NCBI GenBank assembly: GCA_902760845.1 | Contig: CACWHX010000001.1 | Coordinates: forward strand, 1 to 64,000 | Length of the DNA: 64,000 nt | Source: Oscillospiraceae bacterium | GTDB taxonomy: Bacteria > Bacillota > Clostridia > Oscillospirales > Oscillospiraceae | Reading direction: 5' to 3' | Part shown: in pieces, positions 7,949 through 8,053 of the stretch | Layout of the letters: the number at the start of each line of letters is the position of its first letter | Position numbering within the stretch: position 1 is the stretch's first letter | The notes under the pieces: generated by a model | The model's input: only the letters and a program-made list of their open reading frames with translations | What the model was told of the DNA's origin: nothing | Databases searched by the model: none | Program-made: the position numbers and the translations under genes

Positions 7949-8024
7949 TCTGTCTGTCTGTCTGTCTGTCTGTCTGTCTGTCTGTCTGTCTGTCTGTCTG
8001 TCTGTCTGTCTGTCTGTCTGTCTG
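7949..8024. repeat. (TCTG)19 tetranucleotide microsatellite
   Basis: Nineteen uninterrupted TCTG units, 76 bases. On the minus strand this is (CAGA)19 starting one base after the possible -10 element of the proximal promoter and ending 162 bases before the adhesin ATG. In the adhesin frame a stop codon lies just after the tract, so it is not translated as part of the adhesin. Long tetranucleotide tracts of this kind are prone to slipped-strand mispairing. Confidence 0.95.
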
Positions 8025-8053
8025 AGCATGCCCGATCGCCGCCCTTTTGTCAA
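8025..8053 (-). promoter_or_regulatory. Proximal sigma-A-like promoter of the adhesin
   Basis: Minus-strand TTGACA (8053-8048), 17-base spacer, CATGCT (8030-8025). The -35 is perfect and the -10 weak. The predicted transcription start falls inside the TCTG tract, so the tract would form the start of the transcript. Confidence 0.5.

Follow-up and report, generated by a model that had tools for sequence, protein, structure and literature searches.

A perfect (CAGA)19 tract before a Clostridial surface adhesin gene as the probable core of a leader-peptide attenuation switch

In the 64-kb stretch of DNA analysed here (the window), a perfect tetranucleotide tract stands between a distal promoter and the gene of a surface adhesin. 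We propose that the adhesin is probably controlled by leader-peptide attenuation of the pil1/pil3 type, with this tract as the hypermutable element of the switch. In Streptococcus gallolyticus the GCAGA repeats of pil1 and pil3 lie in a leader peptide and attenuation is proven, the gain or loss of units moving the stop codon to or into the terminator with a consequent rise in transcription, and deletion of the U-run inactivated that terminator (Danne et al. 2014, PMC3894217). The tract of the window belongs to a family of leaders with a common order formed by a promoter, the tract, a small tract-paired hairpin (T1), a strong intrinsic terminator (T2), a ribosome site and the surface gene. For the family as a whole we hold the pil1-type reading with higher confidence than for the copy in the window.

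The tract, its locus and its relatives

The features of the locus are collected in Table 1. The tract is the sole long perfect microsatellite in the window, and its 76 nt compare with a maximum of 16 nt for the longest tetranucleotide run in shuffled windows. A preliminary description of this DNA had counted 19 perfect TCTG units, had placed the tract 162 nt from the adhesin ATG and had considered it to lie outside the adhesin frame; each of these points was confirmed on the minus strand, where a TAA occurs in the adhesin frame at +12 past the tract.

Table 1. Positions of the tract, the adhesin gene and the leader elements in the window.
Feature	Positions	Strand	Basis or detail
(CAGA)19 tract, spelled (TCTG)19 on the + strand	7949-8024	-	read from sequence and shuffle comparison
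Surface adhesin, 1278 aa	3950-7786	-	Pfam Cna_B, E 1.7e-43
Distal promoter P2, TTGACA-18-TATCAT, TG before the -10	8114-8143	-	promoter scan, 11/12 matches
P1 promoter-like hexamers, TTGACA 8053-8048, 17 nt, CATGCT 8030-8025	8025-8053	-	read from sequence
Candidate leader ORF B, ATG 8072-8070, stop 7928-7926	7926-8072	-	sequence reading
Candidate leader ORF A, ATG 8029-8027, stop 7936-7934	7934-8029	-	sequence reading
GC-rich hairpin of 17 bp at the T2 position, -40.6 kcal/mol	7877-7915	-	predicted folding
Adhesin ribosome-binding site GGGGAGGA	7795-7802	-	read from sequence
ATGA overlap, long-leader TGA on the adhesin ATG	7783-7786	-	ORF A at n=18, ORF B at n=17 or 20

The adhesin shows a signal peptide, two DUF7601 and two Cna_B stretches and a C-terminal sorting-type signal (SPRTGD). 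It was not found in the 9 congeners searched, so that these offer no second allele of the window locus. Inside the gene, an in-frame 18-nt repeat occurs 13 times at 7369-7606 (an ENKSED/GNKSE stalk), and a change in its copy number would resize the stalk and keep the frame. Upstream of the leader, the region 8226-9661 contains a truncated MFS-like ORF, a small XRE regulator and a TnpV gene, and a 23-nt direct repeat is present twice at 8265-8310, inside a direct-repeat region at 8207-8310; these repeats and genes adjoining the leader are mobile-element remnants.

In order to place the tract among its relatives, we scanned 394 genomes of the order of the window for (CAGA)6 or longer in an unbiased manner and found such a tract in 14 of them, so that the earlier statement that long tetranucleotide tracts are unusual in Clostridia was not borne out. 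The non-coding tracts with readable context (G000, G095, G113, G275, G316, G243, G421, G114 and G214) all share one layout, consisting of promoter-like hexamers, usually 0-5 nt from the tract where the upstream side is assembled, the tract itself, and then, where the downstream side is assembled, a hairpin leader and usually a secreted or surface protein. The coding tracts of the same scan lie in hsdS (G280, G391, G423), in a methylase (G360) and in the 5' part of an acetyltransferase (G284). A further scan of GTDB species genomes gave at least 80 loci, nearly all from Clostridia or other Bacillota. Among the matches listed the contig ends at the tract in 20 of 81 loci (about a quarter), as expected for variable or multi-copy repeats, and these breaks are proof of neither.

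The genes found downstream of leader-type loci encode Cna_B/DUF7601/FctA proteins (Extibacter muris), an LPXTG major pilin (Mogibacterium timidum), BspA-type LRR, InlB-repeat and choline-binding proteins and a type IV pilin-like protein, and a few of these loci precede non-surface genes, for example a response regulator (L071). One genome (G316) carries at least five paralogous leaders (L028/L122, L290, L319 and L329-L332), several of them broken by contig ends at the tract; in L332 the tract is degenerate and may be locked. At the hsdS loci L025, L032 and L035 and at other coding loci, (CAGA)n lies inside the gene and is read as ...ILTDRQTDRQ..., and the hsdS genes with such tracts probably encode phase-variable type I specificity subunits. 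The DNA preceding the tract of the hsdS loci (TTGACA-N17-GACAATCTTGACAG) is strongly leader-like. At L124, L053, L094 and L275 (genome G284) the repeat occupies the extreme 5' end of acyltransferase or acetyltransferase ORFs, where ON/OFF frameshift control of surface-sugar modification is likely.

Length variation was observed among relatives. The end of a Tn916-like element with an LRR surface gene occurs in two genomes of different genera, where tracts of 5 and of 13 units lie between flanks which are 99.3-99.8% identical over about 6.7 kb, and three contigs of a viral collection carrying one secreted-protein operon have 14.25, 16.25 and 20.25 units between flanks 93-98% identical. Near-identical copies thus differ by whole units only, which indicates that the tracts change length unit by unit. 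The differences of 2 to 8 whole units between copies with 93-99.8% identical flanks support the slipped-strand variation of a surface protein that had been suggested for the window. With regard to the hypermutable repeat that marks the pil1/pil3 type, the window contributes the (CAGA)19 tract and the relatives the whole-unit differences. The LRR gene of the element is intact in L185 (G1000); in L186 (1498-5056, G930), which has the 13-unit leader, it is split by an erm(B)-carrying insertion (NCBIfam 6.7e-171). Plasmid and phage collections yielded no further leader copies, the plasmid matches being to the neighbouring regulator DNA of a Tn916-like element and not to the leader.

Leader anatomy and leader peptide in the family

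The core set comprises 41 leaders and excludes five loci that lack the layout of the leaders (L056, L078, L096, L109 and L118). Classes were assigned by reading frames and not by pattern, because the first letters of a tract (TTGACAGACA) can themselves satisfy the TTGACA pattern. In most leaders the tract is directly followed by the T1 arm, which is the complement of the tract (typically TAAGTCTGTCC), and then by T-rich DNA. T1 reaches -4 kcal/mol or better in 31 of 41 leaders, compared with 14-21 in shuffles and with 9 of 71 coding tracts, and TTTT follows the arm in 34/41 leaders versus 4/71 coding tracts. Between the tract and the gene, 31 of 42 leaders have a T2 terminator that reaches at least -12 kcal/mol in strength, versus 1-4 in shuffles. 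In an alignment of ten alignable T2 hairpins 96% of the cells pair, and 9 of the 19 pairs have changed on both sides, with a covariation score reached by none of 500 shuffles. Pairing of the tract with the 3' arms of T2 also beats shuffles, but a few leaders drive this effect.

A genome of the window's own family carries a (GCAGA)9 leader (L324, 1500-1760) with T2 and with the T1 arm CTCTGCTC, so that the arm matches the changed unit; directly downstream of this leader a clear surface gene was not seen. L104 and L314 have a nearly identical leader in front of unrelated genes, and hence the leader behaves as a module. A strict T1 pattern gave no match in 391 genomes of the class, and an Rfam 15 search of 20 loci returned 5S rRNA and tRNA only, the leader having no match above the gathering threshold. 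These Clostridial leaders were not found reported in a literature search.

The analysis of the reading frames points to a peptide encoded in the leader. An ATG or GTG is situated 2-4 nt past TTGACA in 37 of 56 leaders. As a control we took 43 distinct ordinary promoters of relatives that share the AAAGRGGTTGACA context, and 4 of these have such a codon (Fisher p 9e-9). All 37 leader frames continue into the tract without a stop, which has a probability of 6e-9 at a chance of 0.60 per frame. The conserved start codon, together with frames that are all open into the tract, suggests that the tract is probably inside a leader peptide. An upstream promoter is also enriched, with a mean score of 10.8 where shuffles average 8.7 +- 0.2 and none of the 40 scores as well, and is of perfect or near-perfect consensus in several leaders. 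One frame ends short of T2 and another reaches it in 32 of the 33 leaders with T2 (shuffles, 26.0 +- 2.2); in the (GCAGA)9 leader the stop is at +8, a gain or loss of one unit places it at +54 or +49, and T2 begins at +56. The conserved leader ORF and the upstream promoter thus make a leader-peptide frameshift relative to the terminator the likely switch.

These data bear on two claims of the preliminary description. A transcription start at the tract is probably not correct, since the family has a leader start codon upstream of the tract and a promoter upstream of it, and the absence of any role for frameshift probably does not hold either, given the conserved leader ORF. Its proposal that the tract acts via the leader and outside the adhesin's own frame is supported. 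An early model of our own, with the transcription start in the tract (TTGACA-N17-(-10)), was demoted after the leader-ORF tests.

The region has a double nature which limits what can be drawn from single motifs. We had read AAAGGGG as a ribosome site only, and this was rejected when the same context was found in ordinary promoters; the argument therefore rests on the start codon and the open frame and not on a Shine-Dalgarno score. AAAGRGGTTGACA-N16-18-TANNNT is a recurrent extended -35 context in the order, being present in 34 of 97 relatives' genomes and 0 times in the reversed control, and it also precedes tRNA genes. The start region of the family leaders can be read both as a good ribosome site with start codon and as a good promoter, and a promoter-like sequence within a transcribed leader could cause sigma-dependent pausing. 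The longest open frame after the tract has a length within chance, so an open read-through frame does not by itself count as evidence, and the early stops past the tract (39/45 versus 17) are weak evidence because the conserved TAA-containing T1 loop may partly cause them.

The window leader and competing explanations

P2 is strong and is the only promoter called by the scan of the window leader; it is located upstream of the leader ORFs and is likely the promoter of the leader transcript. A proximal promoter abutting the tract had been described before, and this stood in part: TTGACA and CATGCT are present directly before the tract with the 17-nt spacing, but CATGCT matches TATAAT at 3/6 positions and the scan calls the distal promoter only.

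Two candidate leader ORFs enter the tract. At n=19 ORF B would encode 48 aa (MSLKKILDKRAAIGHAQTDRQ...) behind a weak Shine-Dalgarno sequence (3/6), with its stop at +23 past the tract; at n=17, 20 and 23 it would run without a stop as far as the adhesin start. ORF A would encode 31 aa (MLRQTDRQ...) at n=19, with the Shine-Dalgarno-like AAAGGGCGG at 8047-8039, 9 nt ahead of its ATG, and a stop at +15, and would extend to the start of the adhesin at n=15, 18 and 21. The hairpin starts at +34, beyond both n=19 stops, and is crossed by the read-through frame, which ends at +166 for ORF A at n=18 or ORF B at n=20. Since both candidate ORFs stop before the hairpin at n=19, the assembled state is the short and presumably low-expression one, and judging from the frames a change by a single unit would lengthen the leader peptide (n=18 for ORF A, n=20 for ORF B).

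We propose that transcription starts upstream of the tract, at P2 in the window, and that the leader RNA would code for a short peptide whose frame passes through (CAGA)n, so that slipped-strand gain or loss of 4-nt units would shift the frame after the tract. In the short frame the peptide would stop just past the tract, the hairpin would form and little adhesin mRNA and protein would be made (OFF or low), and in the long frame ribosomes would reach or cross the hairpin and expression would go up. The long peptide of the window would end in the ATGA overlap with the adhesin start, which may permit translational coupling.

The window is an atypical member of the family, having lost T1, with a T2 lacking the U-run and with non-standard leader starts. 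A T1 arm was looked for after the window tract and not found; the terminator scan of the window leader did not call the hairpin, which is followed by a short T-run (GTTTGCG) in place of a proper U-run; and the candidate start codons do not occupy the family's usual site 2-4 nt past TTGACA. It is for these reasons that we regard the switch at this locus as probable and no firmer.

The best surviving alternative, which we consider unlikely, is that P1 is a real promoter whose transcript starts in the tract, the tract length grading the output without any leader peptide. The P1 context matches the genuine promoter type of the order described above, and P1 can equally be read as a promoter for sigma-A, in which case the RNA would start within the tract and would not include the start codon of the leader; promoter-like hexamers lie closely before the non-coding tracts of the (CAGA)6 scan, and (AGAT)n of Moraxella uspA2 offers a precedent, with effects up to 3.4-fold (PMC7302503). 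However, a start in the tract leaves the conserved start codon, the 37 open frames and the upstream promoters unexplained, and the -10 of the window P1 is poor. It is more doubtful still that the tract in the window has decayed or is tolerated, so that the repeat would still slip but the leader would have lost adhesin switching along with T1 and the terminator tail. The missing T1 arm, the uncalled terminator, the weak -10 and the non-standard leader start fit such a decay, whereas the strong hairpin at the T2 position, the intact adhesin, the intact 76-nt perfect repeat and the read-through ATGA overlap argue against it. Least probable is an RNA-only attenuator, in which the length of the tract would affect how it pairs with either the T1 arm or the 3' arm of T2, and hence termination, without translation: T1 pairing is real in the family, its arm follows the unit in the GCAGA leader and pairing between the tract and the 3' arms of T2 exceeds that in shuffles, but the predicted structure of the window is constant for n=1 to 25 and elsewhere most change occurs at small n.

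Known switches and wider meaning

The leader-peptide switch proposed here resembles pil1/pil3 in the short leader repeat, in the intrinsic terminator that separates the repeat from a cell-wall surface gene, seen in most of the family, in the presence of one frame that stops short and another that reaches the terminator, and in unit numbers that differ between strains; the GCAGA unit itself is present in a genome from the family of the window (L324). The Clostridial leaders, known from their sequences only, differ in that the unit is mostly CAGA (4 nt), that their start region also resembles a promoter with TTGACA, that T1 is added with the tract itself as its 5' arm, and that they serve many kinds of surface proteins, some of them on mobile elements. 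The window differs further by having neither T1 nor a U-run after its hairpin.

In Haemophilus and Neisseria, phase variation arises by tetranucleotide slippage in coding tracts. The (CAGA)n tracts inside hsdS, methylase and acetyltransferase genes of the genomes searched are similar to these, whereas the tract of the window lies outside the adhesin coding sequence. In this respect it resembles the (AGAT)n of Moraxella catarrhalis uspA2, a tetranucleotide tract that is similarly long and lies some 130-160 nt before an adhesin ORF, which is also outside the adhesin frame and acts at the transcript level; the accessible part of the source describes no leader ORF or terminator for uspA2, unlike in the Clostridial leaders, and reports changes that are not tied to frame (PMC7302503).

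We suggest tentatively, and with somewhat less than even confidence, that a horizontally spread cassette (SD-TTGACA-ATG, (CAGA)n or (GCAGA)n, tract-armed T1, and T2) may be a common phase switch of Clostridial surface proteins, in which the repeat would be read both as frame-setting codons and as the RNA of a terminator arm. An attenuation-type repeat switch has been described in one Streptococcus species, and the known Clostridial phase switches are mostly DNA inversions. The T1/T2 leader allows new members to be found by their sequence. If the proposal is true, the cassette would represent a widespread system of phase variation in Clostridia of the gut and mouth that has not been reported before, and whose ON/OFF state would be readable from the unit number modulo 3 in genomes and metagenomes.
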